In this document: piece by piece, positions 30,138 to 44,674 of the stretch
How the letters are laid out: every line of letters starts with the position of its first letter
How positions within the stretch are numbered: the stretch's first letter is position 1
Source of the DNA: Pontixanthobacter rizhaonensis
GTDB lineage: Bacteria; Pseudomonadota; Alphaproteobacteria; Sphingomonadales; Sphingomonadaceae
DNA length: 64,000 nt
Assembly: GCF_012972675.1 (NCBI RefSeq)
Contig: NZ_JABCRE010000002.1
Coordinates: 981,001-1,045,000, forward strand
Direction of reading: 5' to 3'
Program-made: the position numbers and the translations under genes
The notes under the pieces: generated by a model
What the model saw: only the letters and a program-made list of their open reading frames with translations
The model's database searches: none
Told to the model about the DNA's origin: nothing

Positions 30138-30515
30138 ATGACCACTCCCACCAAAGCCGACCGAGAGAATGGCTCGCGCTTCTTGCCCAAATTTGATGAT
30201 AACGGTTTGCTGACAGCTGTTATCGTTGATCATGAGACCCAACAGGTACTGATGGTAGGGTTTATGGACCAAGAAGCCATTGATCAAACCCTGACAACCA
30301 AGTTGGCCCACTTCCACTCCCGCTCACGCGGTAAGCTTTGGCAAAAGGGCGAGACATCAGGGAACGTCCTAAGGGTGCAAGATATCCTCGTAGATTGCGA
30401 CCAGGATGCGCTCGTCATAAAGTGTGAAGCAAGTGGACCGACGTGCCACACCGGGGTCACGTCATGCATGTACCGCCGCCTGGAAGATGGCCAGCTGACA
30501 CCCATCGATACTTGA
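30138..30515 (+). CDS. hisI: phosphoribosyl-AMP cyclohydrolase
   Basis: HisI opens the purine ring of phosphoribosyl-AMP in histidine synthesis. The 125-residue protein carries the single-domain signature: GFMDQEAI, LWQKGETSGN, the metal-binding DCDQDAL and the zinc cysteines in CEASGPTCHTG. It is a free-standing HisI without the HisE domain, as usual in alphaproteobacteria, and is not next to other his genes. Its stop codon lies inside the MerR operator/promoter. Confidence 0.96.
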   Translation: MTTPTKADRENGSRFLPKFDDNGLLTAVIVDHETQQVLMVGFMDQEAIDQTLTTKLAHFHSRSRGKLWQKGETSGNVLRVQDILVDCDQDALVIKCEASGPTCHTGVTSCMYRRLEDGQLTPIDT

Positions 30516-30539
30516 CGTTTACGTAAAGGGTAGTTATGA
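30512..30539 (+). promoter_or_regulatory. MerR-type operator/promoter before the MerR-acyl-CoA dehydrogenase operon
   Basis: TTGACGTTTACGTAAAG (30512-30528) is a near-palindrome (TTGACGT-TT-ACGTAAA) of the kind bound by LiuR-like MerR regulators. It also supplies a -35 (TTGACG) with TTATGA as -10 at 30534-30539, 16 bp apart. Transcription would start at about 30546-30547, at the MerR ATG itself. The same sequence recurs at 44621-44637 with 15 of 17 identities. Confidence 0.6.
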
Positions 30540-30546
30540 CACTTGC

Positions 30547-31014
30547 ATGACTACGCCATCCGATGTTCACGACGCCAAACCCGTTAGAGAGGCCCATGCT
30601 GGCGCTCATTTAGATCGTCCCGACAAGCTGGATCGGGAGCAATACAGCATTTCCGATCTCACGTCGGAATTCGATTGTACCGCCCGCGCACTTCGGTTTT
30701 ACGAAGACGAAGGGCTGGTTGCGCCAAAGCGTATCGGGCTGACCCGGGTGTATTCCAAACGTGACCGCGCAAGGCTTGCATGGATCATGCGGGCCAAGAA
30801 TGTTGGCTTTAGTCTCGTTGAAATCCGCGAGATGATTGACCTTTACGACCTTGGCGATGGTCGGGTCGAACAGCGCCGTGTCACAGTAGAAAAATGCCGC
30901 GACCATGTCGCCAAATTGAAGCGTCAGCGCGCCGATATCGATTCGTCGATCAAGGAGCTGAGCGCCTTCATCAATCAAATCATAGAGTTAGACCTCGACA
31001 GCTCAAAGAGCTGA
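30547..31014 (+). CDS. MerR-family transcriptional regulator (LiuR-like)
   Basis: This 155-residue protein has an N-terminal winged HTH (YSISDLTSEFDCTARALRFYEDEGLVAP, in parts) followed by RVYSKRDRARLAWIMRAKNVGFSLVEIREMI and a C-terminal dimerisation coiled coil (about 110-150). No metal-binding cysteines appear in the C-terminus, so it is probably not a metal sensor. Proteins of this type next to acyl-CoA dehydrogenases control fatty-acid or branched-chain amino-acid breakdown and sense an acyl-CoA. The gene has no ribosome-binding site and appears leaderless. It is followed after 20 bp by the dehydrogenase. Confidence 0.88.
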   Translation: MTTPSDVHDAKPVREAHAGAHLDRPDKLDREQYSISDLTSEFDCTARALRFYEDEGLVAPKRIGLTRVYSKRDRARLAWIMRAKNVGFSLVEIREMIDLYDLGDGRVEQRRVTVEKCRDHVAKLKRQRADIDSSIKELSAFINQIIELDLDSSKS

Positions 31015-31034: not shown

Positions 31035-32840
31035 ATGCCTACTTACACCGCACCAACGCGCGACGCGCGCTTTATCATCAACGAAGTGCTTGATCTGGCG
31101 AGCTACAATAATCTGCCGGGTTTTGAGAGCGCGACGCCCGACATGATCGACACCGTCGTGAATGAAGCTGGCAAGTTCTGCTCTGAAGTGCTCGCTCCGC
31201 TTAATCAGGTCGGAGATAAAGAAGGTTGTACTCGCCACGAAGACGGGTCTGTAAGCACCCCAACGGGCTTTAAGGACGCGTTTGAAAAGTATCGCGAGTC
31301 GGGTTGGGGCACAATCGCCCAGCCTGAAGAGTTTGGAGGGCAGGGTATGCCTCATGTCCTCGGCTTTGTGGTCGAAGAGTTTGTGGGCACAGCCAACCAA
31401 GCCTTTGCGATGTATCCTGGCCTTACCGGCGGCGCCATTGCCGCTATCACGGCGAAGGGATCTGACGAGCAAAAGGAAACCTACCTGCACAAAATGATCG
31501 CCAATGAATGGACGGGTACAATGAACCTGACCGAACCGCATTGCGGTACCGATTTGGGGATGATCCGGACCAAGGCAGAACCGCAAGCTGATGGATCCTA
31601 TGCCATCACCGGTACCAAGATTTTCATCTCTGCCGGCGAGCACGATATGGCGGAGAACATCATTCATTTGGTTCTCGCCAAAACACCGGGTGCCCCTAAC
31701 AGTTCAAAAGGCATTTCGCTGTTCGTCGTGCCGAAATTCTTGGTCAATGAAGATGGTTCTTTGGGTGACCGTAACACGCTGGAATGCGGCTCGATCGAAG
31801 AGAAGATGGGCATCCACGGCAATTCCACCTGCGTCATGAACTATGATGGTGCTAAGGGCTGGATGGTCGGCGAAGAGCATAAAGGCCTTGCCGCAATGTT
31901 TATCATGATGAACGCCGCCCGCTTAGGCGTCGGCATCCAAGGCTACGCCCAAGCAGAAGTCGCCTATCAAAATGCGGTGGCTTACGCGCTGGATCGCCGC
32001 CAAGGTCGTGCCCTTAGCGGCCCGGCCGAGCCAGAGGCGGCAGCTGATCCAATCTTTGTTCACGCGGATGTTCGCCGGATGTTGATGGACGCAAAAGCCT
32101 ATGTCGAAGGAATGCGCGCACTGGCGTTATGGGGTGCGTTGCAGGTCGATCTCACCCATAAAGGTGCAACTGAAGAAGACCGCGCAAAGGCGGACCAGAT
32201 CATCAGTCTGCTAACCCCTGTCATTAAAGGATACGGCACTGACAAAGGCTACGATGTCGCAACCAATATGCAGCAAGTCTTTGGCGGCCATGGCTATATC
32301 CAGGAATGGGGTATGGAACAATTTGTTCGCGATAGCCGCATTGCTATGATTTACGAAGGCACCAACGGGGTGCAAGCGATGGACCTTTGTGGCCGTAAGC
32401 TTGCCCAAAATGGCGGTGCAGCCATCCAGACATTCTTTGCTACCGTCGATGAAGAAATCGCTGCGGCGAAAGATATTGAAGCCCTTGCTCCATTTGCCGA
32501 GAAGCTTGAGAAAGCACTTGGCGAGCAGAAAGCTGCAACCATGTGGTTTATGCAAAATGCGATGGCCAATCCAGATCATCTGGGCGCGGGCGCGCATCAT
32601 TATATGCACATCATGGGCATCGTCTCCCTCGGCCTGATGTGGCTCAGAATGGCGACAGTTGCGCAGGCAAAACTGGATGCAGGCACGGATGATGCGGCAT
32701 TTTATGAAACCAAACTGGCGACGGCACGCTACTTCGGTGATCGCTTCCTGCCAGATTGCGGCTCGCTTCGCCGGAAGATTGAAACTGGTTCTGACAGCAT
32801 GATGGCACTTGGCGAAGATGCGTTTTTGACCGCTGCATGA
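31035..32840 (+). CDS. acyl-CoA dehydrogenase (long form, C-terminal extension)
   Basis: This 601-residue flavoenzyme introduces a trans-2 double bond in an acyl-CoA. It has the N-terminal helical domain, the flavin/substrate beta-domain (MNLTEPHCGTDLGMIRTKA, KIFISAGEHDMAENI), the C-terminal helical domain (VFGGHGYIQEWGMEQFVRD, IYEGTNGVQAMDL) and an extra C-terminal domain of about 120 residues. The size and extension match the group that includes DmdC (3-methylmercaptopropionyl-CoA dehydrogenase), but substrate cannot be set by eye. An AAGGA site lies seven bases before ATG. It is co-transcribed with the MerR gene. Confidence 0.95.
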   Translation: MPTYTAPTRDARFIINEVLDLASYNNLPGFESATPDMIDTVVNEAGKFCSEVLAPLNQVGDKEGCTRHEDGSVSTPTGFKDAFEKYRESGWGTIAQPEEFGGQGMPHVLGFVVEEFVGTANQAFAMYPGLTGGAIAAITAKGSDEQKETYLHKMIANEWTGTMNLTEPHCGTDLGMIRTKAEPQADGSYAITGTKIFISAGEHDMAENIIHLVLAKTPGAPNSSKGISLFVVPKFLVNEDGSLGDRNTLECGSIEEKMGIHGNSTCVMNYDGAKGWMVGEEHKGLAAMFIMMNAARLGVGIQGYAQAEVAYQNAVAYALDRRQGRALSGPAEPEAAADPIFVHADVRRMLMDAKAYVEGMRALALWGALQVDLTHKGATEEDRAKADQIISLLTPVIKGYGTDKGYDVATNMQQVFGGHGYIQEWGMEQFVRDSRIAMIYEGTNGVQAMDLCGRKLAQNGGAAIQTFFATVDEEIAAAKDIEALAPFAEKLEKALGEQKAATMWFMQNAMANPDHLGAGAHHYMHIMGIVSLGLMWLRMATVAQAKLDAGTDDAAFYETKLATARYFGDRFLPDCGSLRRKIETGSDSMMALGEDAFLTAA

Positions 32841-34792: not shown

Positions 34793-35716
34793 TTATGCTT
34801 CAGGCAAAAACTCTGGCACCGACAAATATCGCTCACCAGTATCGTAATTGAAGCCCAGCACGCGGGACCCTTCCGGTAGGTCAGCCAGTTTTTTCGCAAT
34901 CGCGGCCAGCGTGGCGCCGCTTGAAATGCCAACCAGCAACCCTTCTTCGGCAGCGCAGCGGCGGGCCATTTCTTTAGCAGCCTCTGCATCCACCGGGATA
35001 GCGCCGTCAATCGCCTGAGTGTGAAGGTTGCCCGGGATGAAGCCAGCGCCAATACCCTGGATCGGGTGAGGGCCGGGTTGCCCGCCGCTGATCACGGGGG
35101 ATAGTTCGGGCTCAACCGCATAGGCTTTCATGCCCGCCCAATGCCGTTTCAATTCTTCGGCACACCCTGTCAGGTGCCCGCCAGTGCCGACACCGGTAAT
35201 CATGACATCAATGGGATCATCGGCAAAGTCAGTGAGAATCTCTTGCGCGCTGGTGCGCACATGGACTGCGACATTGGCTGGATTGTCGAACTGGGCGGGC
35301 ATCCAAGCACCATCAGTTTGGCTGACCAGCTCCGTTGCGCGTTCAATAGCGCCTTTCATGCCCTTGGTTTTATCAGTCAGGTCAAATGTGGCGCCATAAG
35401 CAAGCATCAGTCTGCGGCGTTCGAGCGACATCGATTCCGGCATCACAAGGACGAGCTTATAACCCTTGACCGCAGCCACCATTGCCAGCCCGATACCGGT
35501 GTTTCCGCTGGTGGGTTCAATGATAGTACCGCCTGGTTTCAGATCACCGGCTTCTTCAGCAGCTTCCACCATCGCCAAAGCAATGCGGTCTTTAATCGAA
35601 CCGCCAGGATTGCCGCGTTCCGACTTCACCCACACCTCGTGATTGGGGAACATACGGGAAAGCCGGATATGCGGAGTATTACCAATGGTAGCGAGGACGG
35701 AATCGGCTTTCATCAT
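34793..35716 (-). CDS. cysK: cysteine synthase A (O-acetylserine sulfhydrylase)
   Basis: CysK makes cysteine from O-acetylserine and sulfide using PLP. The 307-residue length is standard. The PLP lysine is Lys42 in GGSIKDRIA; the substrate loop is [10 protein letters not shown] and the phosphate-binding loop is [10 protein letters not shown]. It overlaps the upstream MFS gene by four bases, so the two form an operon; the transporter could export or import a sulfur compound, though nothing in its sequence proves this. Confidence 0.97.
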
Positions 35717-39411: not shown

Positions 39412-40616
39412 GTGTCCAATTCGGAATAGATCGGCTGCTGGCAAATGCTGACCTGCGGAAGCCGCTGGAAAATAAGCGGGTGGCGTTGGTCGCCCATCCC
39501 GCATCGGTAACAACTGATCTTACCCACTCTTTAGACGCGCTGATCGGCGCGGGCGTGAATGTAACCTCAGCCTTTGGCCCGCAACATGGCCTGAAGGGCG
39601 ACAAGCAAGATAATATGGTCGAAACGATGGATGAGACCGATCCGACCTACAACATACCGGTGTTCAGCTTGTACGGCGAGGTGCGCCGCCCAACAGCGCA
39701 GATGATGGCGAGCGCAGATGTATTTTTGTTTGACCTGCAAGACCTTGGCTGCCGAATATATACCTTCGTAACGACACTGTTATATTTGCTCGAGGCGGCG
39801 CAAGAGCATGGCAAAGAAGTATGGGTCCTGGATCGGCCAAACCCCGCCGGAAGGCCCGTTGAAGGCACTATCCTGCAATCAGGCTATGAAAGCTTTGTCG
39901 GCGCTGGCCCAATGCCAATGCGCCACGGCCTGACCCTTGGCGAGATGGGGCATTGGTTCATCGACCATTTCGGGCTCAATGTTAATTACCGCGTTATTGA
40001 GATGGCGGGGTGGAAACCGGAAGGAAGCGGGAAAGGTTGGCCAACAGACCGCATCTGGATCAACCCCAGTCCCAATGCCGCGGCGTTAAATATGGCGCGC
40101 GCTTATGCGGGCACTGTAATGATCGAAGGCGCAACCGTTAGCGAGGGCAGGGGTACCACACGGCCGTTAGAGGTGCTGTTTGGCGCGCCTGATCTAGATG
40201 CCAAAGCAATTCTTGCCGAGATGCAGCGCTTTGCGCCGCAATGGATGGCGGGATGCTTGCTGAGAGAATGCTATTTCGAGCCGACCTTCCACAAACATCA
40301 GGGGGAGCTTTGCAGCGCACTGATGATCCATGCGGAGGGGCCGCATTATGATCATGACGCGTTCAAACCATGGCGGTTGCAAGCTCTGGCATTCAAAGCA
40401 ATCAGGGTGCTGTATCCTGACTATGATTTGTGGCGCGGGCTGGATTTCAAATATGAATACACAAACGACGTCTTGGCGATTGATGTGATCAATGGCGGGT
40501 CATCACTGCGCGAATGGGTGGATGATCCATCATCGCAGCCTGATCATTTGGATGCTCTCGCCAACCCTGACGAAGCGGCGTGGCGAAACGATGTTCGCCA
40601 GCACTTGCTTTACTAG
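39408..40616 (+). CDS. exo-beta-N-acetylmuramidase NamZ-like (DUF1343)
   Basis: DUF1343 proteins were shown to remove MurNAc from the non-reducing end of peptidoglycan-derived oligosaccharides (NamZ). The 402-residue length fits. Typical stretches are RVALVAHPASVT, FGPQHGLKGDKQDN, LFDLQDLGCRIYTF, VLDRPNPAG and EGRGTTRPLE. The start ATG 39408 overlaps the DOMON-like stop. I see no signal peptide, so action may be cytoplasmic unless the DOMON partner changes this; many homologues are exported. The gene links to cell-wall recycling. Confidence 0.88.
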   Translation: MSVQFGIDRLLANADLRKPLENKRVALVAHPASVTTDLTHSLDALIGAGVNVTSAFGPQHGLKGDKQDNMVETMDETDPTYNIPVFSLYGEVRRPTAQMMASADVFLFDLQDLGCRIYTFVTTLLYLLEAAQEHGKEVWVLDRPNPAGRPVEGTILQSGYESFVGAGPMPMRHGLTLGEMGHWFIDHFGLNVNYRVIEMAGWKPEGSGKGWPTDRIWINPSPNAAALNMARAYAGTVMIEGATVSEGRGTTRPLEVLFGAPDLDAKAILAEMQRFAPQWMAGCLLRECYFEPTFHKHQGELCSALMIHAEGPHYDHDAFKPWRLQALAFKAIRVLYPDYDLWRGLDFKYEYTNDVLAIDVINGGSSLREWVDDPSSQPDHLDALANPDEAAWRNDVRQHLLY

Positions 40617-41797
40617 GCGCCGTTCTTCCGCGTTAGCTCACGCATGGCATCGTCCAAACCGTCCAAAGTCAGGCCGTACATCCGGTCATTGACCAGTTCT
40701 TTGATAATTTTCGTGCTTTGAGAGTAATTCCACTGCTTCTCTGGCACCGGGTTGATCCAAACTGTTGCAGGATATGTGTTGGTAACACGGCGCATCCACA
40801 TGGCTCCGGCTTCCTCGTTCATATGCTCCACGCTGCCACCCTGATGGGTAATTTCGTAAGGGCTCATGGCTGCGTCGCCCACAAAAATGACTTTGTAGTC
40901 ATGACCGTATTTATGCAGGATGTCCCAGGTATTGGTTCTTTCCTGCCAGCGGCGTTTATTGTCTTTCCAGACGCCTTCATACAGGCAGTTATGGAAGTAG
41001 AAAAACTCCATATTTTTGAATTCGCTATTGGCTGCGCTGAACAGCTCTTCGACCATCTTGATAAAGGGATCCATTGATCCGCCGACATCAAGGAACAGCA
41101 ACAACTTTACCGCATTATGGCGTTCCGGGCGCATGCGGATATCTAGCCAGCCTTGCTTGGCAGTTCCTTCGATGGTTGCGTCCAGATCCAGCTCATCCGC
41201 ATTTCCCTCACGGGCAAAACGGCGGAGTCGCCGCAGCGCCATTTTGATATTGCGCGTGCCAAGTTCTTTGGTGTTGTCGAGGTTTTGAAACTCGCGCTTC
41301 TCCCAAACCTTCACCGCTTTCTTATGCTTGCTTTCGCCGCCGATCCGAACGCCTTCGGGATTGTAACCGGAATGACCAAACGGGCTGGTGCCGCCGGTAC
41401 CAATCCATTTATTGCCGCCTTCATGGCGTTTCTCTTGTTCCTCAAGACGCTTCTTGAGGGTGTCCATAATCTCATCCCAATCACCCAGAGCTTCAATCTC
41501 GGCCATTTCTTCTGGAGTAAGGAACTTTTCCGCGACCGCTTTCAGCCATTCCTCGGGAATATCAACGGCTTCTTGGCCATAGTCTGACAGAATGCCTTTG
41601 AAAGTCTTGTTGAAGACTTGATCAAACCGGTCGAGCAAACCTTCATCTTTCACGAAGGTGGCGCGGCTTAGATAATAAAAAGCCTCAGGGGTCTGATCAA
41701 TCACATCACGGTCAAGGGCCGCAAGCAAGGTGAGGTGCTCCTTAAAGGACGCCTGAATACCCGCCGCGCGGAGCTCATCTACGAAATTAAAAAACAT
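40613..41797 (-). CDS. VWA-domain protein (CoxE-like)
   Basis: This 394-residue cytoplasmic protein has an N-terminal helical half and a C-terminal von Willebrand A domain with a MIDAS motif of the D-x-G-x-S kind (LFLDVGGSMDPF) near residue 235. CoxE-like VWA proteins usually work as substrate adaptors for a MoxR AAA+ ATPase, and a MoxR gene lies on the same strand 2 kb upstream (43734-44597). The two genes are separated here by a chemoreceptor on the opposite strand and a broken membrane gene. It is divergent from the chemoreceptor and convergent on namZ with a 4-bp overlap. Confidence 0.9.
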   Translation of the reverse strand: MFFNFVDELRAAGIQASFKEHLTLLAALDRDVIDQTPEAFYYLSRATFVKDEGLLDRFDQVFNKTFKGILSDYGQEAVDIPEEWLKAVAEKFLTPEEMAEIEALGDWDEIMDTLKKRLEEQEKRHEGGNKWIGTGGTSPFGHSGYNPEGVRIGGESKHKKAVKVWEKREFQNLDNTKELGTRNIKMALRRLRRFAREGNADELDLDATIEGTAKQGWLDIRMRPERHNAVKLLLFLDVGGSMDPFIKMVEELFSAANSEFKNMEFFYFHNCLYEGVWKDNKRRWQERTNTWDILHKYGHDYKVIFVGDAAMSPYEITHQGGSVEHMNEEAGAMWMRRVTNTYPATVWINPVPEKQWNYSQSTKIIKELVNDRMYGLTLDGLDDAMRELTRKNGA

Positions 41798-41928
41798 GAA
41801 TCATGCTTACCATGTTGGCCGCGCGTTACCAGTCAGTTTCAGTTCGAATACCAAATTGCCGCTCTTAAGAGTTCGATAACCATAAGTCCGGTAAAGACGG
41901 CCAATACAAAATTGGGGTGATCTTCCGA

Positions 41929-43332
41929 ATGAAACATGCCGAATTCGATAAGGCCGATAGCCAAAGCATCGACACCATTTCCGAGAGCTGCGGCGATGTA
42001 ACCGTCGGTTGTGCCGATGTTGCCGGATTTGTTGAATCGGTAATGGCATCTTACGATGGCCTTAGAGCTGAACACGAAGCTTTGCATGAAACAGTAACGG
42101 GGCTTGAGGCCGACCAGCTGAAGGTGTCCGAGGCAAGTGACGAAGCGCGCCTTCTGTCTGAACGCGCGATCGAACGGCTTGGGCAGGGCACCAACCTCAT
42201 TCAGTCCTCGCTGGGTCAAATATCCGATTTATTGGAACTGGTTGAGACACTCACCCAGCACGTAACTGGCTTTGCAGCAGCGATGGAGCAAGTCCGCAAA
42301 TGCTCGCAAGACATTGATCAGATCGCCGAGACGACCAATATTCTCGCCTTAAATGCCACCATCGAAGCGATGCGTGCAGGCGATGCCGGGCGCACTTTCG
42401 CAGTGGTGGCCAACGAAGTGAAAAGCTTGGCCGGCGACACCCGCCGGGCAACAGAAGAAATCAGCAGAACCATTTATGCACTGGGCGGGGAAGCCGAGAC
42501 TGTCATCGCTAAAATCGAAGCTGGTGCAGCGGCCAGTAAAGCCGCCAAAACCTCTGTTTCGCAGATTGAACAGACTATCGATGGCGTGGCCAATCTGGTC
42601 GAAGAAGTTGACCGTCAGAACGATCAGATCGCGCGCACGACGGGCACAATTAGCGACCATGTGCATAAAGTCCGCGATGTGTTGGTTTCTTTCGACAATG
42701 CTGGCCTCAACAACGAGAAGCATTTGAAATTGGCGCAAGAGCGTATGCGCGGCCTTGAGCTGACGGCCAGCCAGATGTTCGATGATATTGTCAAAGCGGG
42801 TATGTCGCCTCGGGACAGTGTGATCGTCGAACAGGCGCAGAAGCACGCCAAGGAAATCGTTGAGAAAACAGAAGCCGCGATAGAAAGCGGCGATTTGAAT
42901 TCAGAAGCGTTGTTCGACCAAAACTATATTCAAGTCGAAGGCAGTAATCCGCCACGCTTCCGGACAAGCCTGAGCGATTGGGCCGATCAAAATTGGCGGC
43001 CAGTGCTTGATCATGTGTCCAAGCAAGGCGGACCGATCAAAATGTGTTCGCAAGCTGACATGAACGGGTTCCTGCCAACACACGTCTCAGACAGGTCGAG
43101 AACACCCACGGGCGACCTGGCGCACGACACAGAATATTGCCGCAATGGCCGCATATTATTCGACGCGACTGACCAGAAAGCCAAACGCAGCAATGCACCC
43201 TACATGATGGCGGTCTACCGTCAGGAAGGGAACGGGCAAGAATACATCGTAGTCCGAAACGTATATGTGCCGATTTACATCAATGGCCGCCGCTGGGGCG
43301 ACTTTGAAGTGGCCTATATTTTTGAGGATTAA
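41929..43332 (+). CDS. soluble methyl-accepting chemoreceptor with C-terminal sensor
   Basis: The ATG at 41929 is preferred (a GTG at 41917 is possible), giving 467 residues. There is no transmembrane segment. Residues ~15-110 form helices, and the MCP signalling hairpin is clear around residues 125-175 ([22 protein letters not shown], in parts; [18 protein letters not shown]). The C-terminal ~170 residues carry a conserved block ([49 protein letters not shown]) that looks like a small PAS/Cache-like sensor placed after the signalling domain. It may sense a cytoplasmic signal. It is divergent from the VWA gene. Confidence 0.9.
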
Positions 43333-43733: not shown

Positions 43734-44597
43734 TTAACCCGGATTACGACGCGACATGAAGGCGAGACGTTCAAACAGCATGATGTCCTGTTCATTCTTA
43801 AGCAGCGCGCCGTGCAGCGGCGGAATAGCCTTTGTGGGGTCCTGATTTTGCAGCACGTCCAACGGCATATCCTCGTTCAGAAGCAGCTTTAGCCAGTCGA
43901 GGAGTTCCGACGTGCTTGGTTTCTTCTTGAGACCGGGAACCTCGCGGATTTCATAGAACATTTCCATCGCCTTGCTGACCAGAGTTTTCTGGATGCCAGG
44001 GTAGTGGACTTCGATAATCGACCGCATTGTGTCGCGATCAGGAAACTTGATGTAGTGGAAGAAACAGCGGCGCAGGAAAGCGTCAGGCAGCTCTTTCTCG
44101 TTGTTTGAAGTGATCACAACAATCGGGCGTTCTTTAGCCGCGACCCGCTCTTGAGTTTCATATACATCGAAGCTCATCCGATCGAGTTCCTGCAACAGAT
44201 CGTTGGGGAATTCGATATCCGCCTTGTCGATCTCGTCGATCAGCAGCACTGGCAATTCAGAAGAGGTGAACGCTTCCCAAAGCTTGCCTTTTTTGATGTA
44301 ATTACGAATATCGTGAACACGCTCTTCACCGAGCTGTCCATCGCGCAGACGCGCCACAGCGTCATATTCATACAGGCCCTGCTGGGCTTTAGTGGTCGAC
44401 TTCACGTTCCATTCGATGAGCGGCGCACCAACGGCTTTCGCGATTTCATGCGCCAAGACAGTCTTACCGGTTCCCGGCTCACCTTTGACCAACAAAGGGC
44501 GGCGCAATGTCACCGCAGCATCGACGGCTACTTTAAGATCATCTGTTGCAATATAATCGTCAGTACCGCCAAAGCGCCCAATAGTCGTATCGGTCAT
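43734..44597 (-). CDS. MoxR-family AAA+ ATPase
   Basis: This 287-residue protein has Walker A GEPGTGKT, Walker B VLLIDEIDKAD and sensor 1 VVITSNNEKELPDAF, the pattern of MoxR-type AAA+ chaperones that mature or activate enzyme complexes together with VWA partners. The CoxE-like VWA protein at 40613-41797 is the likely partner. The upstream region carries a second copy of the MerR-type site found at 30512. Confidence 0.93.
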   Translation of the reverse strand: MTDTTIGRFGGTDDYIATDDLKVAVDAAVTLRRPLLVKGEPGTGKTVLAHEIAKAVGAPLIEWNVKSTTKAQQGLYEYDAVARLRDGQLGEERVHDIRNYIKKGKLWEAFTSSELPVLLIDEIDKADIEFPNDLLQELDRMSFDVYETQERVAAKERPIVVITSNNEKELPDAFLRRCFFHYIKFPDRDTMRSIIEVHYPGIQKTLVSKAMEMFYEIREVPGLKKKPSTSELLDWLKLLLNEDMPLDVLQNQDPTKAIPPLHGALLKNEQDIMLFERLAFMSRRNPG

Positions 44598-44620: not shown

Positions 44621-44637
44621 CTTTACGTAAGCGTTAA
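44621..44637 (-). promoter_or_regulatory. second MerR-type operator, upstream of moxR
   Basis: Read on the minus strand the site is TTAACGCTTACGTAAAG. It matches the site before the MerR gene (TTGACGTTTACGTAAAG) at 15 of 17 positions. It lies 24 bp before the moxR ATG. The -35/-10 assignment here is unclear (TTAACG as -35 with no good -10). Confidence 0.5.
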
Positions 44638-44674
44638 GCTGAGCGGCACAAAAGGGCAAGCTTTGAAAACCCGG

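Follow-up and report, generated by a model that had tools for sequence, protein, structure and literature searches.

The window, a stretch of 64,000 nucleotides from Pontixanthobacter rizhaonensis, holds two loci that share a short palindromic sequence (Table 1). At one of them, a gene for a MerR-family regulator (merR) stands directly ahead of a gene for an acyl-CoA dehydrogenase (acad). At the other, on the reverse strand, lie a moxR gene and the gene of its presumed partner, a protein with a VWA domain, with a gene on the forward strand between them. The preliminary description had placed a 17-mer, TTGACGTTTACGTAAAG, at 30512-30528 upstream of merR and proposed that it recurs upstream of moxR. 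Both copies are there: the second reads TTAACGCTTACGTAAAG at 44637-44621 of the reverse strand, is identical to the first at 15 of 17 positions and is separated by 23 bp from the moxR ATG at 44597. Their core is a 16-bp inverted repeat, TTnACG-N4-CGTnAA. The pattern TTNACGNTTACGTAAAG has exactly two perfect matches in the window, the merR-side and moxR-side 17-mers; with up to three mismatches it has four, against a mean of 0.69 in shuffled sequence, and four were reached in 1 of 100 shuffles. The description had also called moxR distant. That needs qualifying: only 13 kb separate it from merR here, and in 15 of the 60 genomes compared (this one included) the two genes lie on one contig, 10-17 kb apart. 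The TTGACG of the merR-side site is also compatible with a -35 element. The ORF preceding merR (30138-30515, hisI-like by eye) has its stop codon at 30513-30515, within the left half of that site.

Table 1. Genes and predicted regulatory elements at the two loci (positions in the window)
Feature	Position	Strand	Description
MerR operator 1 (predicted)	30512..30527	+	16-bp core TTGACGTTTACGTAAA, upstream of merR-acad
merR	30547..31014	+	155 aa; Pfam MerR-DNA-bind 2.2e-15, MerR_1 4.3e-15
acad	31035..32840	+	601 aa acyl-CoA dehydrogenase, Acyl-CoA_dh_C domain (Pfam), directly 3' of merR
VWA_CoxE-domain gene, presumed MoxR partner	40613..41797	-	Pfam VWA_CoxE 2.3e-9
MCP-signal-domain gene between moxR and VWA gene	41917..43332	+	Pfam MCPsignal 3e-26
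moxR	43734..44597	-	287 aa AAA+ ATPase; Pfam AAA 6.7e-15, AAA_5 1.6e-11, bpMoxR under its cut-off
MerR operator 2 (predicted)	44622..44637	-	TTAACGCTTACGTAAA, 40 to 25 bp upstream of moxR ATG
Possible moxR -10	44639-44634	-	GCTTAA; overlaps operator 2
Possible moxR -35	44656..44660	-	CTTGC; begins 23 bp upstream of operator 2; putative promoter role

The regulator has an N-terminal MerR winged helix and a MerR-DNA-bind domain, and its own genome contains a single match to it at E<=1e-20. Its association with the dehydrogenase is widespread: 74 of 79 merR loci from various Alphaproteobacteria and relatives also carry a match to acad, mostly directly downstream. Sites were scored with a symmetric weight matrix built solely from the upstream regions of merR orthologues (45 sites from 49 loci, 16 distinct); the window's own merR site was part of the training set and no moxR site was. 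The upstream regions scanned were of unequal length, 250 bp for merR, 150 bp for moxR and 200 or 250 bp for the VWA gene. By this measure a site of at least 15 bits precedes merR in 46 of the 49 loci drawn from the 60 genomes, the three exceptions encoding proteins that are 41-44% identical and have no acad neighbour, and in 26 of 30 loci from named genomes.

Such an arrangement recalls LiuR. As LiuR regulons of Proteobacteria are outlined in the texts consulted, they are governed by a MerR-family protein, serve branched-chain amino acid utilisation and comprise several operons, and in R. rubrum an ILV box lies upstream of Rru_A1994, the regulator gene with its own site (PMC5343134, PMC3223726, PMC7238569). 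The likeness lies in a MerR-family regulator of acyl-CoA-type catabolism with a site at its own gene and several target operons; the difference is that the neighbour here is a 601-aa acyl-CoA dehydrogenase and that the apparent targets are etfBA, maoC-thiolase, acyl-CoA dehydrogenases, an SDR gene and moxR. The likeness is taken from descriptions, and the name LiuR is not established for this protein. The main texts searched on LiuR regulons make no mention of moxR. A search of titles and the first parts of abstracts found no report linking LiuR or an acyl-CoA-related MerR to moxR; RegPrecise and the 2009 regulon paper lay outside that search and could hold an earlier listing.

What the regulator may control can be read from the whole genome. 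In its 2.79 Mb the pattern TTNACGNTTACGTAAA has three perfect matches, at merR, at moxR and 50 bp upstream of etfB, and allowing a single mismatch adds one more, upstream of maoC-thiolase. At two mismatches the real pattern (13+8 matches) and the reversed pattern (9+11) occur about equally often, so only matches with zero or one mismatch carry signal. All 35 genome positions matching TTNACGNNNACGTNAA with at most one mismatch were scored with the merR-trained matrix, and each was called intergenic or intragenic on the basis of ORFs of 120 aa or more. The best 8 of the 35 (17.5-24.2 bits) are all intergenic, lie 20-57 bp upstream of genes and fall at seven promoters, those of merR-acad, etfBA, maoC-thiolase, moxR, a DUF3604 gene, an acyl-CoA dehydrogenase pair and the SDR gene (Pfam, NCBIfam), the last with two overlapping sites. 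The candidate at rank nine (17.1 bits) is intragenic, and the other 26 include two intergenic ones (14.4 bits, upstream of a GMC oxidoreductase gene, and 11.2 bits); one of 14.7 bits is located only in a 132-aa ORF, and the remaining weaker candidates sit inside longer ORFs. Strong matches are accordingly not frequent within coding regions, a frequency that would have spoken against the proposed link. The targets of the best eight are mostly enzymes of the beta-oxidation type, and the presence of etfBA, maoC-thiolase, acyl-CoA dehydrogenases and SDR ties the regulon to acyl-CoA oxidation. Some of these sites are kept among relatives: the etfB site, at zero or one mismatch, in 17 of 60 loci overall and in 8 of 8 genomes of the genus, and the merR and SDR sites each in 8 of 8 genus genomes. 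The gene for ETF-quinone oxidoreductase (ETF-QO), a possible MoxR client, was located in the genome and has no site with zero or one mismatch near it, and it was rejected as a regulon member. The DUF3604 gene (649 aa; at 419693 of contig C3) has an operator of 18.9 bits 36 bp upstream, and its product, a protein of unknown function, possibly belongs to the acyl-CoA regulon as judged by this site.

Conservation of the moxR-side site was followed in 129 moxR loci, 49 from those of the 60 genomes that have moxR (the own genome included) and 80 from named loci, at a threshold of 12 bits. A site is present in 29 of them, whereas dinucleotide shuffling produced one in 5 of 2580 cases (0.19%). Of these 29 sites, 21 score above the best shuffle (14.8 bits) and the other eight no higher than about that value. 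The same 80 named loci supplied a control in the form of their other ORFs of 150 aa or more: 4 of the 482 upstream regions of these ORFs reach 12 bits, compared with 15 of the 80 moxR upstreams, and these four matches are merR itself, one site between MCP and VWA genes counted twice, and one that is unexplained (12.2 bits). The position is also consistent, with 27 of the 29 sites 21-40 bp upstream of the start and the remaining two at 57 and 109 bp. Close relatives retain the site in most cases (6 of 8 genus genomes, with degenerate sites in the other two, G001 and G002), as expected if the link is real, and it occurs in 14 of 29 genomes of the family (genus included). None of the 20 moxR loci representing other families of the order has it, and the MerR is present in 19 of those 20 genomes. 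In all, 100 of the 129 moxR loci lack the site, a point against the link. Named carriers include six Sphingopyxis, two Qipengyuania, Sphingomonas horti, S. prati, Henriciella and Thalassospira. On a moxR tree made by a quick method, with strong support for 17 of its 124 inner branches, the state of the site changes at least 17 times, which implies that the site is readily gained and lost. In S. horti merR-acad and moxR occupy opposite strands, the former lying about 1.4 kb or less upstream of the latter.

A chance resemblance, preserved through common descent or through a promoter role of the segment, is highly improbable as the source of the moxR-side site. The shuffles, the control upstreams and the genome-wide rank led to the rejection of a chance match; in addition the flanks diverge while both half-sites persist, and the site reappears in remote lineages (Henriciella, Thalassospira) and upstream of VWA genes. 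One observation does fit a promoter role for part of the segment: the left half, TTAACG, is retained where the right half is gone (G001, G016).

If the site is functional, it might still be bound by a different regulator with a similar palindrome, for example a MerR paralogue, and moxR would then lie outside the acyl-CoA regulon. The moxR sites of the genus consistently read TTAACGC where its merR sites read TTGACGT, and some genomes encode two or three related MerRs: in Thalassospira, which has three, the MerR analysed has its own site and no acad match alongside, and two further paralogues are present. One moxR-site MAG (G066) yielded no MerR and another (G070) only a fragment at a contig end, and Henriciella, with sites at both moxR and the VWA gene, has a weak merR site (11.7 bits), one of the four named loci below 15 bits. 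Against this reading, the own genome has a single MerR of this type at E<=1e-20, and the moxR site is within the genome's best four under a matrix that was built from merR sites only. A second regulator seems quite unlikely to us, and one MerR acting at both loci is the preferred reading.

The VWA gene offers a further view of this arrangement. The pairing itself is common: the window encodes an AAA+ ATPase (AAA, AAA_5) together with a VWA_CoxE protein, and in numerous Alpha- and Gammaproteobacteria moxR is immediately followed by the VWA gene. (Many Erythrobacter-type and Sphingopyxis loci have, as the window does, an MCP-like gene between the two.) The preliminary description had suggested control of a MoxR/VWA maturation system. 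In this genus the operator stands at moxR, but no operator of at least 12 bits was found upstream of the VWA gene in 8 of 8 genomes, the highest score being 11.5 bits, 247 bp upstream, in one of them (G004). Elsewhere the VWA gene can have its own site. In six of six named Sphingopyxis an operator of 19.8-21.3 bits lies 55-56 bp upstream of it; others were found in G010 (16.0 bits), in Henriciella (G073; 17.1 bits, 25 bp upstream), where the VWA gene lies outside the 10.8-kb moxR locus, and, weakly, in G008 (12.5 bits). Among genomes whose VWA gene does not directly follow moxR, an operator precedes VWA in 9 of the 26 that carry a moxR site and in 1 of the 63 that do not. This count leaves out three site-bearing loci in which only 5-18 bp part VWA from moxR, and site-less loci in which the two are no more than 150 bp apart. 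The one VWA operator without a moxR site scores 14.7 bits and lies 186 bp upstream (G049), and in one set of 29 genomes lacking the moxR site there was none. In the three loci with VWA 5-18 bp behind moxR (L130, L066, L081) the site is at moxR only. The association between VWA and moxR sites gives a Fisher p of 4e-5, or 0.013 with the six Sphingopyxis counted once. When relatedness is considered, five supported independent pairs are left, 3.2 of them on average in the same direction and 0.0 in the opposite one; the sign test is not significant and could not be with these numbers. The separate operators at split VWA genes amount to a natural experiment, and they suggest a common condition under which both proteins are required.

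How the regulator would act depends on where its operator sits in the promoter, with -35 and -10 elements assigned from sequence. In classical activation by MerR proteins, the regulator untwists a long spacer of 19-20 bp between these elements. Membership in the MerR family invites the same reading here, at moxR as at merR, and at merR and etfB of the nearer relatives there is a layout that could accommodate it: TTGACG inside the operator, followed 17 bp on by TA, occurs in 15 of 24 merR sites and 12 of 16 etfB sites of the family, which would put the operator between -35 and -10. (Put as a GYTAG at a fixed distance after the operator, this holds for 27 of the 40 merR and etfB family sites, not for all.) The spacing of 17 bp in those 27 of 40 sites is shorter than the classical one, however, and at moxR the TA is correctly placed in only 1 of 29 sites. 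The possible -35 of moxR is instead a CTTG[CA] further upstream, present 20-36 bp ahead of the operator in 20 of 29 loci against 3.9% of shuffles. Its distance from the operator is exactly 23 bp in 13 of the 29 site-bearing loci, 33 bp in four Sphingopyxis and 28, 29 or 37-40 bp in others; within 45 bp upstream it is missing in four of the 29. The moxR operator thus seems, from these assignments, to cover the -10/+1 region or to sit just beyond the -10. An operator over or after the apparent -10, at variable phase, argues for steric repression and not for spacer untwisting, and LiuR too is termed a repressor in the text consulted (PMC3223726). We disfavour classical activation at moxR for its variable phase and for the 17-bp spacing at merR and etfB, and regard it as unlikely overall. 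The distances near 23, 28, 33 and 37-40 bp approximate half helical turns, in too few clades to judge.

The reading that we prefer is that moxR belongs to the acyl-CoA-oxidation regulon of a MerR repressor, into which MoxR, with or without its VWA partner, has been taken repeatedly; on the sequence evidence we consider this probable. The proposal that one MerR governs both acyl-CoA oxidation and moxR is supported by conservation, by the intergenic rank of the sites and by the content of the regulon, with binding by the MerR itself as the presumed link between them. The same comparisons support a real connection between regulator and moxR in a group of Alphaproteobacteria, one that would extend to the VWA gene in some relatives. 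The MerR encoded just 5' of the acyl-CoA dehydrogenase gene would bind the inverted repeat and, to go by the position of the operator, repress its own operon, etfBA, maoC-thiolase, the acyl-CoA dehydrogenase pair, SDR and moxR. Given these targets, an acyl-CoA intermediate is the most likely ligand to release it. MoxR and its VWA partner would then be made alongside the flavoenzymes of beta-oxidation, and would probably assist or activate one of these flavoenzymes, or their electron acceptor, in the manner of a chaperone or activator.

Known MoxR-VWA pairs give this idea some shape. In E. coli, RavA is a MoxR AAA+ protein with the VWA partner ViaA (PMC10585395, PMC3893208), and ViaA is described as binding the flavoprotein FrdA, part of a respiratory enzyme, with an effect on Frd activity that another group disputes (PMC10585395). 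The likeness to the present case is at the level of the pair, a MoxR ATPase with a VWA protein, subfamilies aside, and the difference lies in regulation. MoxR and VWA genes are also reported downstream of CO-dehydrogenase clusters (PMC12657314), and NorQD is reported to be required for iron insertion into NO reductase (PMC9976466). Like CoxD-type and NorQ/NorD pairs, which are proposed or shown to help complete metallo- or flavoenzymes, the present pair joins MoxR to a VWA protein, here one that matches VWA_CoxE; whereas the CO-dehydrogenase-linked pair adjoins its presumed client, the neighbours examined here vary, and the connection is made by an operator in common. Our leading guess for the client is a beta-oxidation flavoenzyme, in view of the predicted co-regulation with acyl-CoA dehydrogenases and ETF. 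In a more specific version MoxR-VWA is dedicated to the beta-oxidation electron chain, as chaperone or activator of an acyl-CoA dehydrogenase, of ETF or of ETF-quinone oxidoreductase, and was repeatedly recruited to the regulon of the acyl-CoA MerR, with separate recruitment of moxR and VWA where they are split. This version is possible and we offer it tentatively.

A client has been identified for some MoxR-VWA pairs only; for this one the neighbouring genes examined here offer no clue. Among ten neighbours of moxR-VWA at seven loci no conserved gene names a client, and their Pfam hits differ (AraC, GDPD, PALP, TPR, MFS, FlaG, FtsJ and DUF6975, with two lacking a hit); neighbours at other loci were compared solely against genes of the own genome. 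The shared operator ties MoxR-VWA to acyl-CoA oxidation. As a separate observation, a PALP gene (34793-35716) is among the genes that separate merR from moxR here, and a PALP-family gene adjoins moxR in Endozoicomonas and Hahella (L124, L126).
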